Positions 231-25,102 of a DNA stretch of 64,000 nucleotides are shown here, one piece after another. The stretch covers positions 62,001-126,000 of the forward strand of contig SVTY01000004.1 of the NCBI GenBank assembly GCA_015063535.1. Direction: 5' to 3'. Positions within the stretch are counted from its first letter, which is position 1. Each line of letters begins with the position of its first letter. This DNA comes from Oscillospiraceae bacterium (GTDB taxonomy: Bacteria; Bacillota; Clostridia; Oscillospirales; CAG-272). Made by a program: the position numbers and the translations under genes. Below the pieces are notes generated by a model. That model did not search any database, had not been told where the DNA came from, and saw only the letters and a program-made list of their open reading frames with translations.

Positions 231-2032
231 TGGCACTGACGTTGGAAGAGATCGTTGCCAAGCGGAAGGATCGATGGGAGAGCCTGCGGGATATCGAATA
301 CGACCGACGGCTGACCCGTGCGGCAGTAAAGGAAATTCTGCAAAATAAGGAGCTTCGGGATATCGTTACCCGCAAGCCCTATCTGCTCATTGAGGTTGCC
401 TTCAGCGTGGTGGATAAGGAAAAGCATACGGTACCGTTTTTTCTCAACGAGGTACAACGGGATTTTCTTGCCGAGCTGGAGCAAAGAGGGACGGACAAGC
501 CGTACTTTATCCTGAAGGGACGGCAACAGGGCTTTACCACTCTGATCACCGCCATACAGCTTGCCTGTTCGGTGGTACAAAAGAATTTTTCGGGCTTTAC
601 GATTGCCCATCGGAGGGACAGCACCAAGGCGATCTTCAATGACAGGGCGCGGGTGGTGTATCAACGCCTGCCCGATCAGCTGAAGCCACATGAGAAATAC
701 AATTCGGCGGACGAGCTGTTCTTCGACCGTCTCAATTCCTCATGGCGGGTCGAGACGGCATCGGAGGATGTGGCAAGAGGGATGACCCTGAATTTCGTCC
801 ACCTGTCCGAGGCGGCATTTTACAGCTGTGATTTTTCCCTCTTGCAGGCATCGGTGGGTGAGGCGGCGGCAGCGGGAGCGGCGGTGATCTACGAAACGAC
901 GGCGAACGGCTTCAACCATGCCAAGGAGCTGTGGGATAGCGGCGCCTGTCATACGCTGTTTTACGGCTGGTGGCGGACGGCGGAATACCGCAGACAAGAT
1001 GCGCCTCCTGCCGAGGCGGTCGATGGGTGGCTTGCCGAGAGACTGCGGCTTCTTGCCGAGCGGGGGCTGGATGAGGCGCAACGGAATTGGTATGCGCACA
1101 AGTACGCCTCGTATCTCGATAAAAGTCTGATACGGCAGGAATATCCCTGTACGCCGGAGGAAGCCTTCCTTTCGGGCGGAGAGTGTATTTTCGACAAGGA
1201 GGCGATCCAGTCTTGGCTTCTGCGGCTGGAGCAAAAGCCGAAGGGGCGGACGGGATATTTTACTTACAAGAAAACGGGCAGGGAGATCCGCAATTCGGCG
1301 GGCGAGACGGTGGATGTGGAATGGAGCCTGACCGATATCGCCTTTGTTGAGGACAAAAACGGATATATCACCCTGCATGAGGAGCCCCGTATCAAGAAAA
1401 ACGGAGAGGGGCAGACGGTCGCACTGGCACCGTATACCCTTGGCGGCGATACGGCGGGGAGCGGTACCGACTATTTTACGGGCAAGGTGGTGTGCAGTCT
1501 CGACCGCAAAACGGCGGCAACGCTCCGTAAGCAACGGATGGATGAGGATCTGTATGCCGAGCAGATGTACTGTCTCGGCAAGTACTACCACGATGCCCTC
1601 ATCGGAATCGAGACCAATTACAGCCGTCAGCCCACCCGCCTGCTGGCATCGGTCTACCGCTATCCCCATCTGTATCTGAGGGAGCGGTTAGATCGGCTGT
1701 GCGAAACAGTAGAGCAGGTACCTGGCTTTGAGACGACCGCCAAAACAAAGCCCGTCATTATCGGGGAATTGGTCGCCGAAATGCGGGAGGATGTAACCCT
1801 TGAGTGTGACAGGGAGACCCTGAAGGAAATGACGGTCTTTGTCAAGAAGGACAACGGCCGCATGGAGGCGGTTCAGGGCATGCACGACGATCTTGTGATG
1901 GCGCTTGCCATTGCGCATTTTATCGGAACGCAGCAGAGACGGACATGGATCCCCGCCGATACGGGAGAGAAGGATTTTATTACCCGCAATTTCTCGGAAG
2001 ACGGCGACTCGGATGCCTTTATTACGTGGTAA
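230..2032 (+). CDS. phage terminase large subunit
   Basis: ATPase-like FILKGRQQGFTTLITA, nuclease-like GGDTAGSGTDYFTG; position before portal. Confidence 0.9.
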   Translation: MALTLEEIVAKRKDRWESLRDIEYDRRLTRAAVKEILQNKELRDIVTRKPYLLIEVAFSVVDKEKHTVPFFLNEVQRDFLAELEQRGTDKPYFILKGRQQGFTTLITAIQLACSVVQKNFSGFTIAHRRDSTKAIFNDRARVVYQRLPDQLKPHEKYNSADELFFDRLNSSWRVETASEDVARGMTLNFVHLSEAAFYSCDFSLLQASVGEAAAAGAAVIYETTANGFNHAKELWDSGACHTLFYGWWRTAEYRRQDAPPAEAVDGWLAERLRLLAERGLDEAQRNWYAHKYASYLDKSLIRQEYPCTPEEAFLSGGECIFDKEAIQSWLLRLEQKPKGRTGYFTYKKTGREIRNSAGETVDVEWSLTDIAFVEDKNGYITLHEEPRIKKNGEGQTVALAPYTLGGDTAGSGTDYFTGKVVCSLDRKTAATLRKQRMDEDLYAEQMYCLGKYYHDALIGIETNYSRQPTRLLASVYRYPHLYLRERLDRLCETVEQVPGFETTAKTKPVIIGELVAEMREDVTLECDRETLKEMTVFVKKDNGRMEAVQGMHDDLVMALAIAHFIGTQQRRTWIPADTGEKDFITRNFSEDGDSDAFITW

Positions 2033-2052
2033 AACAGGAAGCAGGAGAGGAT

Positions 2053-2247
2053 ATGAGAAGAAAAAAGCGGATCGAGCTGTTGGAGGAGAGGGTCAGTGAG
2101 CTGGAGGTCCTTTTGGATGAGCTGGACGAACGCATCGACCGATTGAAGCAACAGCCGAACAAAGAAGAAGGAGCCAAGGGAGAGGGCGTGTCTACCTCCC
2201 GACTGCTCAGCGAATGGCTCAACGGAGAGGAGGGAGCTCATGGATGA
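2053..2247 (+). CDS. small coiled-coil phage protein
   Basis: MRRKKRIELLEERVSELEVLLDELDERIDRLKQQ; upstream SD; overlaps portal start. Confidence 0.55.
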   Translation: MRRKKRIELLEERVSELEVLLDELDERIDRLKQQPNKEEGAKGEGVSTSRLLSEWLNGEEGAHG

Positions 2248-4153
2248 AAGACAGGTCACGCAGCTGTGGGAGGATTATGAGAACGGTCTGAAGTATCAGA
2301 GTGCCATGGGGCTGGGGAGCAAGCTACCGCAGTTCGTGCGCTTCTATGAGGGGGATCAGTGGCCGCCTCCCACCAAGAATACCAAGAATCTGCCGCGCCC
2401 CGTGATCAATCTGATCAAAATGATCTGCCGCTCCAAAAAGAGCGCCATTCTGTCTACGCCCGTGAAACTGGTCTACACGGCAGAGGACGAAAACGCCGAC
2501 ACGGAACGCTTCAATCGGTTTGCCGAGTATATCGGCAAGGAGCTGGGGCAGGAGGGGCTTGACAAGCAAGCCATCCATGACGGCGTTATCAAAGGCTCTT
2601 ACTTCTATCACTACTACTGGGATGCCGAGGCAAGAGGAAAGGACGGTGCGCGGGAGGGCGCCTTGCGGGGCGAGATCATCGACCCGCTGAATATCTTTTT
2701 TGCCAATCCCAAGGAACGGGACGAGCAAAAGCAGAAATGGATCCTCATCCGTTCGAGAGAGGAGGTTTCCTCTGTACGGAAAAGCATGGACGAGGGACTG
2801 GATGCCGAATCGATCTGTGCCGATGAATCCGAGGAGCGATACGGTGCCGTGGAGCAGGAAGGGGACAAGCTGTGTACCGTTCTGACTAAGTATTTCCGTC
2901 GGGACGGAGAGGTCTTTTGCGAAAAAGCGACCCGCTATGCGGTAGTCAACCGTCCCTTTCCCATCGCACCCGATATCGAGGCGGCATGGCGGGAGCTGGA
3001 CGGAGAGGATGCTCCCAACAACAGCCTGCCCGACACTCCGAAAAAGCCCTCTGTGCGGACAGAAACGCTCAAGGCCCCTTTGTATCCCATTGTGGCGGGA
3101 AGCTATGAGCCGAGAAACAATTCGATCTATGGGCTTGGTGAGGTCGAGGGGCTGATCCCCAATCAGAAATCGGTCAATTTTCTGTTTGCCATGTCTCTGC
3201 TCAATGCACAGGAGACGGCGTGGGGCAAATATGTCGTGCATCCGCAGGCACTGGGCGAGCAGGTCATTACCAACGAGCCGGGACAGGTGCTGGTGGATCA
3301 CAGCAAGACGGGAAGCGGCATCCGCAAGATGACCGAGCAGACCATGCAATCCTTTCCCATTCAGCTGGCAGATACGCTGACGCAGATGACACGATCGGTC
3401 ACGGGAGCAGGGGAGATCATGACGGGAGAGACCGTGGGAGGCAATCTGTCGGGCGCCGCCATCGCCCAGCTTCAGGCACAGGCGAGGATCCCTACCGAGG
3501 AGCTGAAGGAAGCCTTTTGGCTGGTGAAGGAAAAGCAGGGGAAGGTCTTGGCGCAGTTCTTCAAGCTGTTCTATCAAAATAAGCGGTTCAGCTACACGGT
3601 AGAGGCACCGATCGAACACCAAGAGGCGGGTGATGTATCGCCCGCCCCGGGAACCGATCCGGGAGCGGTCAGACAGAGCGATGTCTTTCACGGTGCCGAG
3701 TATTTGGGTACCGAGTTTGATGTGGTGGTGGAGACGACGGGCGGAACCAAGTCGGGCGCCGCAGGGGATATTACCGTGCTGGACGCCCTCTTTGCCAAGG
3801 GCGCCATAACCCTGAAGACCTATCTGAATGCCTACCCCAAGGATGCGCTGTCCAATAAGACCGAGCTGATGCGGGGGATCGAGGCGCAGGAGCAGGAGGC
3901 TCTTCGTCAGCTGACGGCACAGAATGAACAGCTGACCGAGCAGAATCGGCAATATGTGGCACTGATCGAAAAGCAGAATGAGAGCGTGGAGGATGTCAAC
4001 CGCATTATTCGGGAAAATATGGAGCTGAAGGAGCTTCTGGCACGCCTCAGAGCAGAGGCAGAGGATAAGATCCGAGCGGGCAATACCGCACTGATGCAGA
4101 CCACAGCCGATGCACGAGAATTTGCTCAGACATTGGTAGCGAGACAGCAATGA
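2240..4153 (+). CDS. phage portal protein (podovirus/P22-like)
   Basis: 637 aa, RFYEGDQW, position between terminase and scaffold/coat. Confidence 0.85.
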   Translation: MDERQVTQLWEDYENGLKYQSAMGLGSKLPQFVRFYEGDQWPPPTKNTKNLPRPVINLIKMICRSKKSAILSTPVKLVYTAEDENADTERFNRFAEYIGKELGQEGLDKQAIHDGVIKGSYFYHYYWDAEARGKDGAREGALRGEIIDPLNIFFANPKERDEQKQKWILIRSREEVSSVRKSMDEGLDAESICADESEERYGAVEQEGDKLCTVLTKYFRRDGEVFCEKATRYAVVNRPFPIAPDIEAAWRELDGEDAPNNSLPDTPKKPSVRTETLKAPLYPIVAGSYEPRNNSIYGLGEVEGLIPNQKSVNFLFAMSLLNAQETAWGKYVVHPQALGEQVITNEPGQVLVDHSKTGSGIRKMTEQTMQSFPIQLADTLTQMTRSVTGAGEIMTGETVGGNLSGAAIAQLQAQARIPTEELKEAFWLVKEKQGKVLAQFFKLFYQNKRFSYTVEAPIEHQEAGDVSPAPGTDPGAVRQSDVFHGAEYLGTEFDVVVETTGGTKSGAAGDITVLDALFAKGAITLKTYLNAYPKDALSNKTELMRGIEAQEQEALRQLTAQNEQLTEQNRQYVALIEKQNESVEDVNRIIRENMELKELLARLRAEAEDKIRAGNTALMQTTADAREFAQTLVARQQ

Positions 4154-4170
4154 TAAAGTTTTTGAAGGTT

Positions 4171-4226
4171 CTCAGGAAACGTTTTTCAAAAAGGTTCCTG
4201 AGCGGGGATCGGGGCAGCGCCCCGAT
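4171..4226 (+). promoter_or_regulatory. two consecutive stem-loops between portal and scaffold genes
   Basis: CTCAGGAAAC...GTTCCTGAG (4171-4202) and ATCGGGGC-AGC-GCCCCGAT (4208-4226). Confidence 0.5.
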
Positions 4227-4277
4227 TCATACATACTACGCAGGAAGAGCGCAAAAATCCGAGAAAGGAAGAGTTCA

Positions 4278-5093
4278 ATGGAGAACGAAACAATGACAGC
4301 GCAAACAAGCGACCTCTCCGAGGGGAGAGGCATCGTGGGAAACGAGGTCGCTGACGTTTCCAAGCAAGCGGAAGGAGAAGAGGCAGAAGCTGTCTTTTCC
4401 GAGACCAATCCTCCCGAATCGGGAGAAAAACAGCCCCAAAGTGCTGCGACCAATGCCGAATATGCGCAGCGGCGTCGGGCGGCGGAGCAAAGACGGGCAG
4501 AGCGAGAGCAGCAGACTCTTGACAGAGAGCGTCGGGCGGCAAGGGAAGCCGCTATCCTTGAGGTATTGGATCATATCAATCCCTATACCGGTGAGGAGAT
4601 GAAGGATGCTCGGGACATTGAAGAGTATCTGACCATGAAGGAGATCGACCGAGGCGGAGGTGATCCGCTTGGCGACTTTTCCAGATTTCAGAAGAAACGT
4701 CAGCGAGAGCAGGAACGTACCGAGGAAGAGGAGCGAAAGCAGGCAGAATGGTACCGTACCGACAGGGAACGGTTTTTGACCAAATACCCGGAGGTAGACA
4801 TAGAGGAGCTGATCGGGGATGAGGCGTTCCGATCCTTTGCCGAAGGCAAAACGGGAGAGCGACCCTTGACAGAGATCTATGAGGGCTATCTGTCCTTGCT
4901 TGAGGGACGGGACCGACAGGCCCGTCACATGGCGGCACATATGCTCGCCAACAAGAAAGCCTCCCCGGGCGCCCTGTCCCATTCCAACGGCGGAGAGAAC
5001 GAATTCTTTTCGGCGGAGGATGTGCGGAAAATGAGCGCAGGGGATGTACACAAAAACTACGATAAGATCATGAGATCTATGAAAAACTGGTAA
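4278..5093 (+). CDS. putative phage scaffolding protein
   Basis: Charged, E/R-rich helical 271 aa between portal and coat. Confidence 0.65.
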   Translation: MENETMTAQTSDLSEGRGIVGNEVADVSKQAEGEEAEAVFSETNPPESGEKQPQSAATNAEYAQRRRAAEQRRAEREQQTLDRERRAAREAAILEVLDHINPYTGEEMKDARDIEEYLTMKEIDRGGGDPLGDFSRFQKKRQREQERTEEEERKQAEWYRTDRERFLTKYPEVDIEELIGDEAFRSFAEGKTGERPLTEIYEGYLSLLEGRDRQARHMAAHMLANKKASPGALSHSNGGENEFFSAEDVRKMSAGDVHKNYDKIMRSMKNW

Positions 5094-5111
5094 ACAGGAA
5101 AGGAGAAACGA

Positions 5112-5972
5112 ATGTCATATGCGAATTTTATTCCGACCGTTTGGTCGGAGGCGATCCAGAGAGAGCTGGAGCGCAAGAGAGTTTATGTAGAGGATTGCAA
5201 CCGCTCCTTTGAGGGAGCGATCAAGCAGAAGGGAGATACCGTCCGCATTCTCGGTGTGGGCAAGCCTACGATCAAGTCCATTCTGAAGAAGAATGCATCG
5301 GGAGACATCGACGGACCTGAAGAGGTGGAGGATACCTCTGTGAGCCTGACGGTCGATCAGATCCGCTATTTCAACTATATGGTGGGAGACATCGACAAGG
5401 CGCAGTCGGCAGGCGGCGTGATGGAGGCACTGAACAAGGAATCCGCCGAAGGGCTTGCCAATGAGGAGGATACCTATGTATCGGGTCTCATTCTCGGCTC
5501 GGAGGTCAAGAAGCTGCACACGGCACCGAAAAAGATCGTGGTCGGTACGGCGGGTGAGGGTGAGATCAACGTCCTGCACGTCATCGACAATGCGCTGGAG
5601 GCACTGTATGAGCAGGATGTCAACCCCAACAGCACCATCGTGCTGACGGTCTCCCCCCGATTTTACACCCGCTTCAAGCAGGCGTATACCGACAAGGACA
5701 CCGACAACAGTGAGATCATGAAGAACGGCCGTGTGGCACGGTACGGCAACGCCATCATCAAGATGTCCAACAACGTTGCCCGTTCGGACAGCGGAGCGGT
5801 CGATAATCTGATGATCCGCACCCAGCGTGCCATTGCCTTTGCCAATGCTATCGCTCATGTGGAGCCCTACCGTCCCGAACGGAAATTTGCCGATGCGGTC
5901 AAGGGCTATGAGCTGTTCGGTGCGAAGATCGTTCGCCCCAAGGAGCTGCTCAACATCAACGTGACCTATTGA
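5112..5972 (+). CDS. phage major capsid (coat) protein
   Basis: MSYANFIPTVWSEAIQRELERKRVYVEDCNRSFEGAIKQKGDTVRI; P22 coat-like N-terminus; position after scaffold. Confidence 0.85.
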   Translation: MSYANFIPTVWSEAIQRELERKRVYVEDCNRSFEGAIKQKGDTVRILGVGKPTIKSILKKNASGDIDGPEEVEDTSVSLTVDQIRYFNYMVGDIDKAQSAGGVMEALNKESAEGLANEEDTYVSGLILGSEVKKLHTAPKKIVVGTAGEGEINVLHVIDNALEALYEQDVNPNSTIVLTVSPRFYTRFKQAYTDKDTDNSEIMKNGRVARYGNAIIKMSNNVARSDSGAVDNLMIRTQRAIAFANAIAHVEPYRPERKFADAVKGYELFGAKIVRPKELLNINVTY

Positions 5973-5999
5973 CGGCACGCAAAGAAAGGAGAATGAATC

Positions 6000-6362
6000 A
6001 TGGCAAGAACTGTATTGACTGTCCGTGAATTGGACGCAAGAAATACCTTTTGCTCTTCCTTTACCGCCCTGACACAGGCGGTGGATGCGGCAAACGGTGC
6101 AGAGTTTGAAATGGAGGGACAGGACGATAAGCACCTGATCCTGATACAGAATGCCGCTACCTCCGCAAAGACGGTGACCGTCAAGGCGGGCAACGGCTTG
6201 CAGGGCGTGTGCGATCTGTCCTGCGAGGTGGCTGCAAGCGGATACACCTGTGTAACGTTGGAGTCGGGGCGGTTTAAGAATGTCACCGGCGACGACAAGG
6301 GCAAGGTCATCCTCACGGGTACCGATGCCAATATCAAAGTAGCAGTATTCAAGCTGCCGTAA
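6000..6362 (+). CDS. phage structural protein, possible capsid decoration protein
   Basis: Small beta-rich ORF immediately after coat, good SD. Confidence 0.45.
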   Translation: MARTVLTVRELDARNTFCSSFTALTQAVDAANGAEFEMEGQDDKHLILIQNAATSAKTVTVKAGNGLQGVCDLSCEVAASGYTCVTLESGRFKNVTGDDKGKVILTGTDANIKVAVFKLP

Positions 6363-14030: not shown

Positions 14031-14977
14031 CGAACAAAGATCTGGATCAATATATCAGCACCAATAACGGATACAGCCAACAGAAGAAGCTGATGGATCA
14101 ACAGCGTGCGGCAGCTAACAGAAATTTGGAGGTACAGAAAAAGCAGGAGCAGCAGGCGGCGGCGATCCAACATCAGAAGCTGATGAAGTATCTGCCCGAA
14201 TACCAGAAGTCCATGGGGCTGAAGGGAAACGGCATGTCCGAGACAGCGCTCTTGGATGCCAACGCCCGTTACCGTTCCGAGCAGGGACGGATCCATTCGG
14301 AGTATTCCTCACGGCAGGATGCCGTTAATGAGCAATATCGGCAGAATCTGTTGGATCTTTACGCACGGGCTGGGGCAGAACAGGAGCAGGACAGAGAGGA
14401 GCTGTACAATAAGGCAAAGGATGCTATTACGAATTGGCAAGGAAGCTCGGAGGAGCTGACAAAGTACGTCGATAGCTTGGCAGGTCAGTTGGATGATAAC
14501 GATTATGCCATTTTGAAAGATGTGTATACCGGCGTGAACAAGGCAATCATCCAAGCGAACAACGATAAAGAAAAAGAGGATGCTATATTGGCAATTCAAA
14601 CGGATGATTTGGGAGGTAAAGAGATTAGTAATTCAATCCCGACAGAATATTCCAATGGAAAAAATTTCGTAATTAAGTTTGACGGTAAACCATACAAGGT
14701 ACAGATCGACACAGAGGTTTCCGACAAAAATGCGAAAATAGCTGCTACCAATTCCAATATTTCTGAAGGAGAAGTGTTTGTTTACGATGGAAAACTGTAT
14801 TTAAAAGGACCTAACGACGCAATTTACAGCATAGAAAGCCGGTTTTGGGATAGCGGAACAACTAACGACTATTACAACTTGGCTTCTAAATTTAAGAAAA
14901 AAGAGAATACTCCCACTACCACGGATCGGGAAGGCGATTTTTCTGTCGGTACACAAAATTTTCCCACCAGTTTGTAA
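14027..14977 (+). CDS. phage protein, possible ejection/internal virion protein
   Basis: Start reassigned to MTNKDLDQYISTNNG (SD AAAAGGAGAATCGG); Gln-rich helical N-terminus. Confidence 0.45.
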   Translation: MTNKDLDQYISTNNGYSQQKKLMDQQRAAANRNLEVQKKQEQQAAAIQHQKLMKYLPEYQKSMGLKGNGMSETALLDANARYRSEQGRIHSEYSSRQDAVNEQYRQNLLDLYARAGAEQEQDREELYNKAKDAITNWQGSSEELTKYVDSLAGQLDDNDYAILKDVYTGVNKAIIQANNDKEKEDAILAIQTDDLGGKEISNSIPTEYSNGKNFVIKFDGKPYKVQIDTEVSDKNAKIAATNSNISEGEVFVYDGKLYLKGPNDAIYSIESRFWDSGTTNDYYNLASKFKKKENTPTTTDREGDFSVGTQNFPTSL

Positions 14978-15005: not shown

Positions 15006-18000
15006 ATGGCATATAAAACACGGCAACAGATCTATCAAGAAAATCTGGCAAGGAGAGCCGGATATCTGAAATCTCCCGCGCAGCGCAGAGCCGAAGCGCA
15101 GGAGCGTCTCAGAGCGGCGCAAGCCGCCAAGCAGGCACAGGCGCAGGAGGTGGAGACAAAGATCAAGGCGGCATCTGAAAATGTCAATCCGATCTGGCGA
15201 ACCTTATCAACGGTAAATCGTGTTCATGGCAAGGTCGCCACGGGTGCGTTGGGGGCGATCGAGGGCTTGGTCGATACGGTGATCGGCATCGGCGGAGCGA
15301 TCGGCGGTGTCTTTGACGACGACATTCAAGAGGGGGCGCAGAAGATCATCGCCTACAACGCCACCGAGGAATGGGTGGGCAAGCACATCGACGAGCTGAC
15401 CAAATATTCCTATACCGAAGGAAACAAGGTCGGCGAGATCATCGAGGGCGTGGCATCGGGCGTGGGTCAGATGCTTCCCACTGTGGCGGCGGCAGCCATT
15501 ACGGGCGGCGGCTCGTTGGCAACCACAGCGGCAACCAAAGCCGTCAGCCTTGGCGTCACGGCAACCAGTGCCGCAGGCAATGCCATGCAGGATGCCTACA
15601 ACGAAGGCGCCGACTACTATCAGGGTCTTGCCTACGGCGCCACCAGCGGTGCTTTGGAGGCGGTCACCGAAAAGCTCTCGGGCGGAACCATCGGAAGGAT
15701 CACAGGCGTGGGCAAGGGCTTTGCCGATGATGCACTGAAGAACGTGGGCAAAACGGGCATTGCCCGCATTGCCAAGGAAGCCGTCGGCGAGGGCGTGGAG
15801 GAAATGATCACCGAAGCGGCAAGCCCTGCCCTGAAGAGCATTTACAAGGGAAGAGAGGGGCTTCGGGAATACGGCACGCTCGAATTTTACGGACAGGTGG
15901 GAGAAGCGGGCCTTGTGGGTGCTCTGACCTCCGTGGCATTCGGACAGACGGTCGGCAGAGCCACTCTGCGGGGCGGCAATGCGGACATCAACGAAGCATT
16001 GGAATCCATCCGAGAGATCGACCAAAAGACCGACAAGCGGATCATCACCTCCGATCTGACCGAGCGGGATATGGAAAGCATATCCCGGGCAAAGGGAGAA
16101 AACTATCGGAATATCGAGCAGGTGCTGAAGAAGATGGACGGCGAAAAGCGGGCGAAGATGATGACCCGCTACGGCTTTGACGGTATGTTCGATTCCGATG
16201 GCACGCTGAGAGCTGATTTTGCCGCCTCCAACGGCTTTTCGGTATCGGATGGGAAAGTGGTCGCCAACACGCAGAACCGTGTCACAGAGGCAAATTTACG
16301 CTATGTGGCACCGTCTCTGCGGAACAACCGCACCCGCATTGCCGAGGACTTGGCGGCGATCAATGAACGCCGCAGCGAGGGAAGCGCTCCTGTTGCGGTG
16401 TTCGGCGGTACGCTGTCCGCCGAGGGCGAGCAGGCATACAGCCGCTTGAAGGCGGCTGTGGCGAAGCTGAACCGCAAGGCGAACAGCCGTATCAATGTCA
16501 CCGTCGTTACCGCCAACCCCGATTTCCAAGGCGTCTCCGTGCAAAAAAATAACATCTACATTGCTGCAGATGTGTTGGAAAACACCGCCCTTGCTGAACA
16601 GCTTGCCAAGCAAGTCGAGCAGACGGAGCAAACCGAGCAAGACACAGCTCTTGACAATTTCGCCGAGGTGAGGTATAATAGAAAAAGCGATACCGAAGAT
16701 TTATATACCGCTACGGATGCTTTTGTAAAAGAGGTTCACTATGTGGACAGGCATTCCTTCGCACGAAGTCTTGCCAATAAAACCTCCGATATCCAAGAGG
16801 GCGAAACCAAGAATTTACATATTTATTGTGCTAAGAATATTTATGTATTTGAAGCAGTCGGATACATGCAGGGTACGATGATTTTTTCGGTAAGTACGGA
16901 TGCAAAAAAACAAAAAGAAAAAGAGAGAGGGAGATTTTATTATGGCACTGACCGAAACCGAAAAGAAACTGATTTTGGAGCTGGCAGAAACCGTATTGAG
17001 CGAGGACGATCAAATCACTACACTGACAGTTTTGCAAACAGAGGAACAGAGAAAGCAAATGATTCGCTTCTTGCAGGAGAATCCCAACGCAACAGAGCAG
17101 GAGATTTTGAAAGAAGAAGTGAGGCTAATCAAGATACACGGGAAGAAGTAGATAGAATTGTTCATGAACTTCGGAAAAAATATGGAGAGGATTCAGCGCA
17201 AACAAATAAAATAAGAGATACCGCCGACCGAATTAACGGCCTTGAGCGCCCCAAACCAAACGAGGGTTACGCTCTAACAAACGGTATCTCTGATGATAGT
17301 ATATCAGATTCTTCCGAAAAAGTCAATACCGATTCGAAAAAAATTTCACATACCCCTATCAACACCGACCACGCCGTGAAAACGCTGATCCACGAAACGA
17401 CCCACTTTGAAGAGGGAACGCCCGAATATTACGAGTTCATTCGTTTCCTTGCCGAGGATGAAAGTCTGATCGAGGAAACGATCCAAATGCTTACCGAAGA
17501 AAAGACAGGGTATGGCTTTACCAAGGAGCAGGCGAGTGTCGCCATGCAGAAGTTCGAAAACGGCGAGAAGCTCACCGAGGCGGAGCGGGAATTTATTTCC
17601 GAGCTAAACGCCCACGCCTCCGAGAAGCTGCTGGGCGGCAGTCAGGCGTTCATTGAAAAGTTAATACGGGGCGACAGCACACTGGCAGAGAGGGTGCTGG
17701 GCCGCATCACCGACGCTAAGGCGGCATTGGAGAGCCACCGTTCCCCCACCGCCCGAGGGCAGTATCTGCGCCTGAAGCGTGCGGAGCAACTCTATATGAA
17801 AGCCATTTCCGCCGCCGGTATGGGGTACTACAATGGTAAGATTACGGTGAGGGAAGAAGAGGAGCAGAAACAGTACAATAGAAAAACTCAGATAGATGAT
17901 CGGTTACAAATAGAAGTTTTGCGATCTATTGGCAGAAAGAGTATCAATGATTTTACATCGGAGGATATTCAAAAGACAGAATATTGGGCGAGAAAGTTCT

Positions 18001-21000
18001 ATGCGGAGCTTGGAACAAAATCGCCATTTTTCCGTGCGCAGTTTGGTGATTGGAGAGCACATGATGCGACACCCATTCAATTGATACCGATCACCACTAT
18101 CAACGTAGAAAATGCTCTTTCGAATATGCCAACAGGAATCTTTTCAAATAATGATGCTGGCTGGAATATTTCTGTTGGTAGTCTTGGGAAAAATGATACC
18201 GTCAGCCATTCAGGCAGAGAAAAGATTTCTGTAAAAATGCTTTCGGAAATCAAAAAAATTATTGAAAGTGCTGTCCTTCTCGATACCGAAGTATCTGTAA
18301 AGGATAGTTCTAAAAAACACAATGAAACTGCTTTTATGCATAAGCTTTATGCTCCTGTTGTCTACAACGGACAGCACTACATTGCAAAAGTAACAGTTGA
18401 AGAGTATGGAAGCAATGAATCAAGCAAGCGTTTTTACAACCTTCGAGGCATAAAAATAGACCTTGCCGGCGGTACCCCGAATGCAAAAGCATCCTACGGC
18501 ACAGTGCCAAACACAAGGTCTATAAATAGTATAGCAGACCTGTTTGCCTTTGTCAAGGAGTATGATAAAAAATTTTCTCCCAAGCCTGTCAATAAAATGC
18601 TTTTGAATGTAGATGGAACACCCAAGGTGATGTATCATCAGACGGAAGAGAGATTCGATGGTTATAATCCTGATATCAAATTTTCCCGAAAAGAAACTGC
18701 GGAAACCGATTTCTTGGCAGAGGCGAAACGTTCCAACGAGAAAGTCACGATGACCAAAGGACAGTTGGAAAAGCAACGTGCCAATCTGTATGGCGAAAAA
18801 GTATTTAGCAAAAAGGATGTTGCCGAAGCGGTGAACGACATTGAAATTTTGGAGAAAATCGGAAAGAACATTGCCGATCGGAAAAGACCTGAGCTTGAGG
18901 CACAGCTGGCGCAAGCGAAAACACAAAAAGAAAAAAGGGCAATTGAAACAAGAATAAAATACTTAGAGCAAAATGCGATTGCTGAAATGCGGAACAGATT
19001 GACTGACCATTTGTGGACGGGCTTCAACCAAAGACGAGATTCGCAAGCATATGAAAACTACGCCGAGATCATGTATAAAAAAATACATGCCGAATTTATG
19101 AGCGAAACAAACCATGATATGGATACCGATGAAGTTTGGGAGATGGACAGGCAGATCGGACAGGCATTGCGGACGATCATCAAGTCCGGCAAGCTTTCCA
19201 AATATGAAACCAAAATGCTGGAAACAACGGCGGCATATTGGCGAGATCAATACAGGCAAGGTCAGGAACGCACCAAGCTTCTCGGTACGCTGATGAATCA
19301 AACGCAGAAGCTCAAGGAGCTGAAATCGGGAGCCTTTCTGAATGCCTCCGTGTACAAAAGCGACGTGTTCAAGTCCACCGTCGAACAGCTATCACGGATC
19401 AATTATCGGGGCAATCTGAATGTCATGGGTACTCGGAAGCTCATTGCCGATCTGCTTGACTGGTATCAAAGCGATAATCCAATGCTTGGATATGTGGACG
19501 AAGCGAACACCGGCTATTTCCGACAGGAAGTGGCGGATGCCATGCGGATGATCGCCGAGGGCGATAAGGGCTTGAGCAATCAGGAGTTGCAGATGCTCGG
19601 TGAGGTGATCCTGCCGCATTGCATATTCATTGTGGAAAATTTCAACAAGGTCTACCGAGAGGGCAAATACATCGAAGCCATGCCCTTGGCAAAAATGTAC
19701 GTCAAGAAGCTGCAAGCCATGAAGCATCGAAAGGACGGCTTGACCAAAAAGTATCTGCGTACCTTTGGCGATCCCGCCTCTCTGATGCGTTATGCCGACG
19801 GCTATGACCCGAACGGATTCTTTACGCAAACCTTTGAGGAGCTCCGAGAGGGAGCGATCGGCGCCTCCGTGACAGAGAGGGAGCTGTTGCGGGAATTTGA
19901 AGCCTTCCTCCATGGAAAAGGGAAGGGGGACTATCGCAAGCATCTGGAAAAGGATACCGTCACCTATCTCGGCAAAGAGATGTCTGTCCGCCATGCCATC
20001 TGCCTGTATATGACACACAAGCGAAAGCAGGCGGTAAAGGGATTGTGCCTGTCAGGGATCGAATTGGAGATTGACGGCAATCGTGTGCGCCTGCCGGCAT
20101 TGATCGCAGAGGATGGAAAAAAGCATTCTGCGCAAGAAATGCAGGCAACGGTGGATGCCTCCGCTGCGAAACTGCTTGAACAGTTCTCGGAGCAGGACAA
20201 GAAGCTGATCGAGATCATGGAAAAAAGCTTTGCTCGGAGCTCGACTTTAAAAGAAAATACCGATAGGAAGCGTTTTGGATTTTCCAACGTGTTAAAGAGT
20301 GGCTATTATTTCCCAATACGTCGGGCAAACGTAGCGCATAATGTGGACGAGAGCTTTTTTGCAGAGGTCGACCGTGTGACGCATCTCGGATTTAATAAAG
20401 ATACCGTGCAGGGAGCGGCGGGAGCTTTGCTGATCGAACCGATCGACACAGTATTTACCCGCCACATGAGAGGAATTGCTATGTATGCGAACTTGGCGAT
20501 TCCTACCGACAATTTCAACCGCTTGCTGAACTTGAACACGGAAAGCAATCACAATCTGCCGATCAGTGTTCTTTCCGAGATTCAAAGCACAGCCGTAAGC
20601 ACAGAAATGTTCAAATACCTCAAGGAGCTCAAAGAGAGCATTGAAGGGGTCAACCGCTCCGAACAGAGTGCCAAGTGGTTCAACCGTGCTGTCGGTCATA
20701 TTCGCAGCGGCTTTGCCAAGTTCCAGCTCGGCGCCAATGCGAAGGTGCTCATCACCCAAACATCTTCTTTATTTGCCGCAACAAGTGTGCTGGACTATGA
20801 TTGTGTCGTCAAGGGACTTGCGATCCAAAACGCCTATGCCGAGGTCGATACATACTGTCCGCTTGCCATGGTGAGAAATTCGGATAATACCGTTGCGCTG
20901 GCGCAGGGTGTTTTGGATAAGACGGGGAAGGTCGGAGATATCATCATGAAGCCGATTGGTGCTGTCGATCGCTTGGTGGTTACCCGCTTATTCGGTGCTT

Positions 21001-23335: not shown

Positions 23336-25102
23336 CCTGAAGGATTACCTATGATGATAGCTGTCGTGCTTTCTTCCAATATTCGGCGGATGATCCGAGA
23401 CCGTGTGCTGGTGCGAAAGCCGGTCGGGATCGAGGCGGCTGGTAGTATGGATCTGCTGTTCACCGACAAAACGGGTACACTTACCGAGGGAAAAATGAGT
23501 GTCGGGGGAATTGTATTGTCCGACGGAAGCCGCTATGATTCTTACCGTGCCTTGCAAAAAAACGCCAAGGAGATCGCTGAATTGTATGCTCGCTCCTGTC
23601 GGCTGAATACAGCCTCACAATGGTCGGAGGGGGCGGTTTTGGGCGGAAATGCTACCGACCGTGCCCTGTTGGAGTCGGTTTCGGCGGGAAAGGGAGAAAG
23701 GCTCCCTCTTGTCCGAGCCCGCATTCCTTTTGACAGCACAAAAAAATTTTCGGCAGTTTCGGTGGGAGACGGTCGGCTCACCTTGGTTAAGGGAGCCCCC
23801 GAGCGTTTGCTACCGCATCTGCGGTACGCCTACGATCGGGAGGGGCGGATCGGTTCCTTTTCCGGCTGTGCCTATGAGCTGATGAAGCAGGTCAATGCCA
23901 TGACCGCTTCCGGCGGACGGGTCATTTTTTTGGCAGAAGGCGATCATTTGCCGGATCAAGCCGGCTTTGGAGAGTTGACTTTTCTTTGTGCCGTGCTTTT
24001 ACAGGATCGGATCCGACCCGAAGCCAAGCGATCGGTCAGAGAGCTTCAGGGAGCGGGTGTTCGGGTGGTCATGATTACAGGAGACAATCGGGATACGGCA
24101 GGAAGCATTGCCAAGCAGTGCGGGATATTAGAGCACTCCACCGATCTGATCGTCACGGGAGAGGAGCTTGCCCATATGTCGGATGAGGAGCTGAAGCGAT
24201 GTCTTCCCAGACTTGCGGTCGTAGCTCGGGCACTGCCTACTGACAAGAGCCGATTGGTTCGGGTAGCGCAGGAAATGCAGCGTGTAGTGGGAATGACGGG
24301 AGACGGTATCAACGATGCCCCTGCCCTGAAGCGAGCCGATATCGGCTTTGCTATGGGAACGGGGACCCGTGTGGCACAGGATGCGGGGGATATTATCATT
24401 TTAGACAACAATCTGTCCTCCATTGCCCGTGCGGTATTGTATGGACGCAATATATTCAAAAGCATCCGTAAGTTCATCACCCTACAACTCACCATGAATT
24501 TTTGTGCTGTGGGTGTATCCATGATCGGACCCTTTGTGGGCATTGATGCGCCTGTGACGGTGGTGCAGATGCTGTGGATCAACATTATCATGGACACCTT
24601 GGGTGGCTTGGCATTTGCGGGGGAAGCACCTCTGCCGTCCTGCATGAAGGAAAAGCCGAAGCGGCGGGAGGAGCCGATCCTGAATCGTTACATGATCAAT
24701 CAGATCGTTCTGCTCGGCGGCTTTACCATCGGTTTGTATCTGACCTTTTTGCTCTCTCCCACCTTTACCGTTTTATTTCGGAATACCCCCGATCAGCTCT
24801 GTCTTCTGACTGCCTTTTTTGCCCTTTTTATTTTTACCTCCGTGTTCAATTGCTTCAATTGCCGAACCGACCGCTTGCGGCTTTTTGCGGGGATCGGCGG
24901 CAATCGTACCTTTTTGCTGATTATGATCTTGGTCTGTGCCGTTCAGCTTTTGTTCGTCTATTTGGGAGGCACGGTGCTTCGCACCATGCCTCTTACCGCC
25001 GACGAGCTGGGGTATACCTTATTGACGGCACTGTCGGTCTTTCCGGCAGAGCTTCTCCGCAAGCTCCTTTGGCGCATACGGGGAAAAAAGCAAGGTTTTT
25101 GA
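23336..25102 (+). pseudogene. P2-type Ca2+-transporting ATPase, 3' part only (interrupted at PEGLP; first in-frame ATG 23351)
   Basis: In-frame CCT GAA GGA TTA CCT ATG ATG = PEGLPMMIAVVLSSN; DKTGTLTEG, MTGDGINDAPALKRADIG; A-domain and TM1-3 missing. Confidence 0.85.

Follow-up and report, generated by a model that had tools for sequence, protein, structure and literature searches.

Polyvalent proteins are widespread in phages, and we know of no explanation given so far for how a cell survives while making them. Nested genes occur in phages too, Rz1 lying within Rz in the +1 phase. The described systems that come closest to the locus reported here are the polyvalent proteins of phages and conjugative elements, for which cassette swapping has been suggested (Iyer et al. 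2017, PMC5512222); the MuF polymorphic toxins of temperate phages, where a small ORF immediately downstream has been proposed as the immunity gene (Jamet et al. 2017, PMC5576092); and the lambda Rz/Rz1 spanins, in which a complete small phage gene is embedded in another frame of a larger gene (PMC6139136, PMC5295617). The window, by which we mean the whole stretch of 64,000 nucleotides that was analysed, carries a giant phage ORF with a small gene nested in its +1 frame (Table 1), and we are nearly certain that this nested gene is real and not a chance frame.

The window protein resembles polyvalent proteins in being a giant multidomain phage protein with a large polyvalent protein-associated domain (LPD), effector-like domains and linkers. 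It meets the criterion of a very large multidomain phage protein (2489 aa, in a provirus) and that of an LPD, with LPD3 at residues 1036–1144 (E = 6.7e-15; 55.7 bits against a Pfam cutoff of 27); it also matches PHROG 22978 (E = 6e-30). A HETTH motif follows just after the linker with a WLM match below the cutoff, and the region may be read from its sequence as a probable metallopeptidase-like domain. Given LPD3 and, more tentatively, the HExxH motif, we place the giant protein among the polyvalent proteins. No domain other than LPD3 exceeded the cutoff in the Pfam scan, which found no MuF domain; the gene lies far from the portal gene, and the N-terminal MuF criterion is not met. What the locus shares with the MuF toxins is a phage protein with a toxin domain (here only presumed) and a small ORF after it, but theirs is a C-terminal domain with the small ORF past the gene, whereas that of the window is nested out of frame within the ORF and repeated in relatives. 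The nested-gene criterion of Rz/Rz1, an entire gene in another frame with its own start signals, is met here, and the spanin criterion is not: Rz1 is a lipoprotein acting in lysis, whereas a soluble four-helix protein is predicted here, in the linker of an unrelated giant protein and in multiple copies. A term search of Iyer et al. (2017) found no overlapping or nested small gene, and in the open-access literature we found no report of antidotes nested in several copies in the linkers of giant proteins. The MuF toxins offer an analogy for an immunity ORF and Rz1 one for a nested phage gene; neither covers multi-copy antidotes nested in linkers.

Upstream of the giant ORF, the window has genes for a terminase, a P22-like portal, a major head protein, a structural protein, a tail fibre and a spanin. 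An IMG/VR contig identical to the window cassette (3300031555_010989) ends precisely with the giant ORF's stop codon (22475), and the next large gene (23351–25102) encodes a P-type cation ATPase; the giant gene is therefore probably the last gene of the provirus, with the boundary at about 22475.

Table 1 Features of the giant ORF and its nested gene, in window coordinates
Feature	Position	Strand	Basis
Giant long-frame ORF, 2489-aa polyvalent-type phage protein	15006..22475	+	LPD3 match, PHROG 22978 match
Effector-like domain, type C, FAEVRY...FSVSTDAKKQKEKER, directly upstream of the nested gene	16659..16932	+	Long-frame sequence; position equals that of the other domain types
Shine-Dalgarno-like (SD-like) AGGGAG	16928..16933	+	8 nt before ATG 16942; comparable sites before most relatives
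Small gene in the +1 phase of the long frame, encoding a four-helix protein of 69 aa	16942..17151 (stop included)	+	Homology, profile score, predicted fold
R/G/N/S/D/E-rich linker, the long-frame reading of the small-gene DNA	16944..17153	+	Long-frame translation
HETTH (HExxH), probable metallopeptidase-like domain, long frame	17391..17405	+	Sequence; sub-threshold WLM match (E = 0.0054)
LPD3 (large polyvalent protein-associated domain 3)	18111..18437	+	Pfam match

The nested gene and its protein family

A preliminary description had proposed a 69-aa frame with an SD-like site inside the giant ORF, and its coordinates and sequences proved to be exactly as quoted. An alternative ATG farther upstream, at 16900, would give an 83-aa version; we favour 16942 because the family alignment supports it and 16900 has no SD. 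The length of the frame is in itself unremarkable, as six other same-strand ORFs of 60–119 aa lie within the 2489-aa ORF, and since frames of this size are not rare there, homology is needed to decide.

Among phage and viral records, a single-sequence search with the 69 aa returned only the identical copy on the IMG/VR contig, and tblastn with the same sequence gave no matches in annotated phages; with other members as queries, tblastn against phages and plasmids gave nothing beyond one weak match (MT835870, E = 7), which was judged to be chance. When 392 genomes of the class were scanned, a frame of equal length with 40% identity (E = 4.4e-8; E-values of the genome searches are per genome) emerged in the goat-colon Clostridia MAG RGIG2094 (G018), with two further relatives 0.5 and 1 kb beyond it. 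A 4-row profile found nothing convincing over the phylum, a 6-row profile recovered relatives over the class, for a total of about 15 genomes, and a subtype B search led to a second viral contig (L057) with two copies in one 2756-aa ORF; IMG/VR scans with other subtypes found no further members. In leave-one-out profiles, accepted members score 19–95 bits, the weakest being G053 and G379 (19–21 bits), against at most 11.3 bits for shuffled versions; the window protein itself scores 54.8 bits, and none of 100 shuffles exceeds 9.0. The IMG/VR matches L024 and L025 were set aside as partial motif matches within longer proteins, as were the weak matches L046 and L048–L054 (except for named members), which are larger unrelated proteins, lack the long frame or, in L051, have a different frame arrangement.

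The 69-aa protein is soluble and helical, without an evident signal or lipobox. AlphaFold2 with 18 relatives predicts four helices (mean pLDDT 89.9, pTM 0.76), and the best Foldseek match of this model is A0A8S5NB41 (TM 0.85/0.91, rmsd 1.1, 27% identity, probability 1.00, E 0.013), a 64-aa uncharacterised protein of Myoviridae sp. ctUX613 whose predicted fold is similar, but which is annotated as its own gene. There is no family for the small protein in Pfam, PHROGs, NCBIfam or PADLOC, the 69 aa match the Staphylococcal B domain and phrog_17627 below threshold only, and fold and sequence searches of the PDB gave no relatives. The small proteins are a previously undescribed family, spread over other genomes of the class and a viral contig. 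A lack of homologues or of a conserved start would have refuted the initial proposal; instead a family was found, with start and SD conserved.

Cassettes and the proposed role of the small protein

The domain that precedes each small gene is about 90 aa long and falls into at least four sequence types: A (G018b, G216), B (G018c, L057a/b, G126, G043, G277), C (window) and D (G048, G043). The type C domain has no family match, and as a single query it found no relatives but itself. Similarity between small proteins correlates with similarity between domains (Mantel r = 0.51, P = 0.0002), so small gene and domain travel as cassettes. There is one small gene per domain in the three-cassette G018 ORF and in the two-cassette L057 ORF, which meets the paired-gene criterion of toxin-immunity systems. 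Run alone, the type-B long-frame profile finds intact domains solely where the small gene is present; since this profile includes the overlap, the test is not fully independent. The small gene stays intact despite a broken or lost long frame in G080, G216 (two loci), G224 and G192, and the G066 copy is shortened. Judged from sequence, small genes that outlast the long frame would be the pattern expected of orphan immunity genes, and ordinary prophage decay is not excluded.

The model that we propose, as the most economical one, treats the region at 16.66–17.15 kb as a cassette of a phage polyvalent protein in which two frames code. The long frame would contribute an alpha/beta domain of some 90 aa that is effector-like and presumably harms a cell, and that a disordered linker then joins to the next domain. 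The small gene would occupy the +1 frame of this linker, with its SD inside the codons of the domain's last helix, and would be translated separately. Its product, soluble and built of four helices, would most likely bind the domain directly before it and neutralise it, so protecting the producing cell, whether a lysogen or a phage factory, during production of the giant protein and its export or injection. Overprinting would keep domain and antidote on one piece of DNA with the giant frame uninterrupted, so that cassettes could be duplicated and swapped. That an effector domain with a nested cognate antidote has been duplicated inside polyvalent proteins is, in our judgement, an evenly balanced proposition. 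The wider proposal, in which polyvalent proteins bear arrays of effector domains with antidotes overprinted in the joining linkers, forming dual-coding cassettes that are inseparable and can be shuffled within the giant frame, is more tentative and falls a little short of an even chance. The model builds on a real and conserved gene, on its phase, SD and predicted fold, and on its recurrence and co-inheritance with the domain; toxicity, binding, neutralisation and injection are all inferred. In sequence searches, no domain or small protein matched a known toxin, antitoxin or immunity family, so none can be filed in any known family, and the low-confidence model of the long-frame domain (pLDDT 54) has no PDB relative; none of the known toxin folds was recognised. 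Nor do small protein and domain consistently carry opposite charges. A point against an antidote is that a single family of small proteins accompanies at least four domain types that seem to differ, which would be unusual for specific immunity unless the domains hide a shared fold.

That last point suits the main rival better: the nested gene may be real and separately translated without neutralising the domain. Its product would then serve the giant protein as a chaperone or in packaging, or would act on its own in host takeover or as an anti-defence factor, with its gene hitchhiking in the linker. We regard this as unlikely, although a general partner would accommodate several domain types more readily than specific immunity, and the conservation, SD and fold evidence fit it equally. 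Such a partner does not account for the co-variation of small-protein and domain types or for the single small gene per domain in multi-cassette ORFs, and a packaging chaperone would be left without a client where small genes persist without the giant ORF.

Were the antidote model true, it would have several implications: (i) one nested, separately translated antidote per domain would explain how the producing cell survives; (ii) the small proteins would form a new family that tends to escape automatic annotation because the genes lie inside a long ORF; (iii) SD-preceded +1 frames beneath the linkers of giant phage proteins would become a search rule; and (iv) dual coding would be a modular, recurrent design that is directly testable and not a mere curiosity.

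Two side observations concern individual loci. At L026 (3089–3853), a REP/IS200-like transposase gene seems to cut short the first effector domain of the three-cassette ORF of the goat-colon MAG, with the small gene intact. In two genomes of one genus, different cassettes (L078, G043:C49, 10367–14781; L079, G071:C489, reverse complement, 1699–6199) occupy one chromosomal site just past the same pair of ABC transporter genes, and this looks like a polymorphic cassette site.

Constraint on the two frames and their recurrence

A further reading, which we consider improbable, is that an ordinary downstream gene was captured and the long frame through it is meaningless, the product of a recent accidental fusion or an assembly error. 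It can draw on the substitution data, which we also count in favour of the proposed antidote model. As the window cassette has no diverged close homologue (only the identical viral contig), the test rests on relatives, namely six type-B cassettes with intact long frames. In their upstream domain the differences at the three long-codon positions amount to 0.42, 0.33 and 0.56, and in the overlap those at the three small-codon positions to 0.35, 0.28 and 0.48; there the long-codon third position is the least variable, and the switch of phase occurs at the small start. The signature within the overlap is the small frame's only, that of purifying selection, and the long-frame linker is of low complexity. 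Moreover, when the same bases are translated in either frame, it is the small protein that shows the higher conservation, in 36 of 36 type-B pairs. The long frame of a type-B cassette is predicted, with low confidence, as alpha-beta-beta-beta-alpha, and pLDDT is about 30 through much of the overlap. Substitution phase, pairwise conservation and fold predictions together identify the small frame as the constrained partner in the overlap, upholding the asymmetry originally remarked on between a folded small protein and a disordered long-frame linker.

The recurrence of the overlap is difficult to reconcile with a meaningless long frame. In 14 overlaps at 11 loci (the window; G018, three in one ORF; the viral L057, two in one ORF; G126, G043 at two loci, G277, G053, G379, G048 and G071), the small gene comes after an effector-like domain and is always in the same phase as in the window, with the long frame open and the third frame closed. 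Synonymous codon shuffling predicts 0.9–3.2 long-frame stops per small gene, and none is observed in any of the 14; summing the single-gene probabilities, about one stop-free long frame would be expected. With local codon usage, the window gene has a probability of 0.03 of a stop-free long frame, and every other gene one below 0.003; the homologues are not independent, and we claim no product of probabilities. Taken alone, the stop-free long frame of the window is just mildly unusual (P = 0.03–0.06), and what makes its case is the same-phase recurrence in other genomes. Downstream, the giant ORFs continue over hundreds to thousands of codons. The long frame of G048, of G071 and of one G043 locus measures just 144–156 aa, yet it ends in 'YSLS'-like linker motifs, from which these look like pieces of polyvalent ORFs. 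The assemblies are metagenomic, and recurrence in independent contigs makes an artefact unlikely. The small frame is probably older than the long-frame extension, and we infer that the giant ORF was most likely extended through a small gene that lay downstream, a de novo origin of the small gene being the less likely course. The suggestion of overprinting or of a captured gene is thereby supported and refined, the window being one case of a recurrent cassette.

Inferred translation of the small gene

A programmed +1 frameshift out of the long frame, which would yield a shorter product with domain and small protein fused, can be rejected as very improbable. An A7 run does lie within the A-rich GCAAAAAAAC of the long frame (16902–16911), just upstream of the nested start, and the small frame of the window is open for 48 nt upstream of its ATG. 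An A run would, however, favour a −1 slip into the closed third frame, not into the small gene. In most relatives, an in-frame stop lies 3–48 nt upstream of the small start, at as little as 3 nt in G018b and in G126, so that a shift could hardly fit in between, although it is farther off in G277, G379, G224 and G192. Start codon and SD are retained: sites of the GGAGG, AGGGAG or AAGGAG type precede most small starts at normal spacing, that of the third G018 copy (a GTG) among them, with poor sites in G053, G216:C34 and G192. The SD sites and nearby upstream stops in most relatives argue, as far as signals in the DNA can, for independent initiation of the small gene. That the frame is open by chance and without significance, as the other 60–119-aa frames of the same ORF might suggest, is scarcely credible, being already refuted by homology, with 54.8 bits in the leave-one-out profile where compositional shuffles reach at most 11.3, a confident fold, and a conserved start and SD.

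Two weak resemblances to the family were also noted. In L051 (reverse complement, 623–1165), a stretch with weak resemblance to the family forms an in-frame fusion with an R/G-rich linker, and the neighbouring frame is also linker-like; possibly the roles of the frames are swapped. In L084 (reverse complement, 14386–14619), a second ORF of 78 aa (MQRQTEFEPYRDVL...) stands right after the G080 relative; its resemblance to the family is very weak (9.6 bits), and it is possibly a further divergent member.
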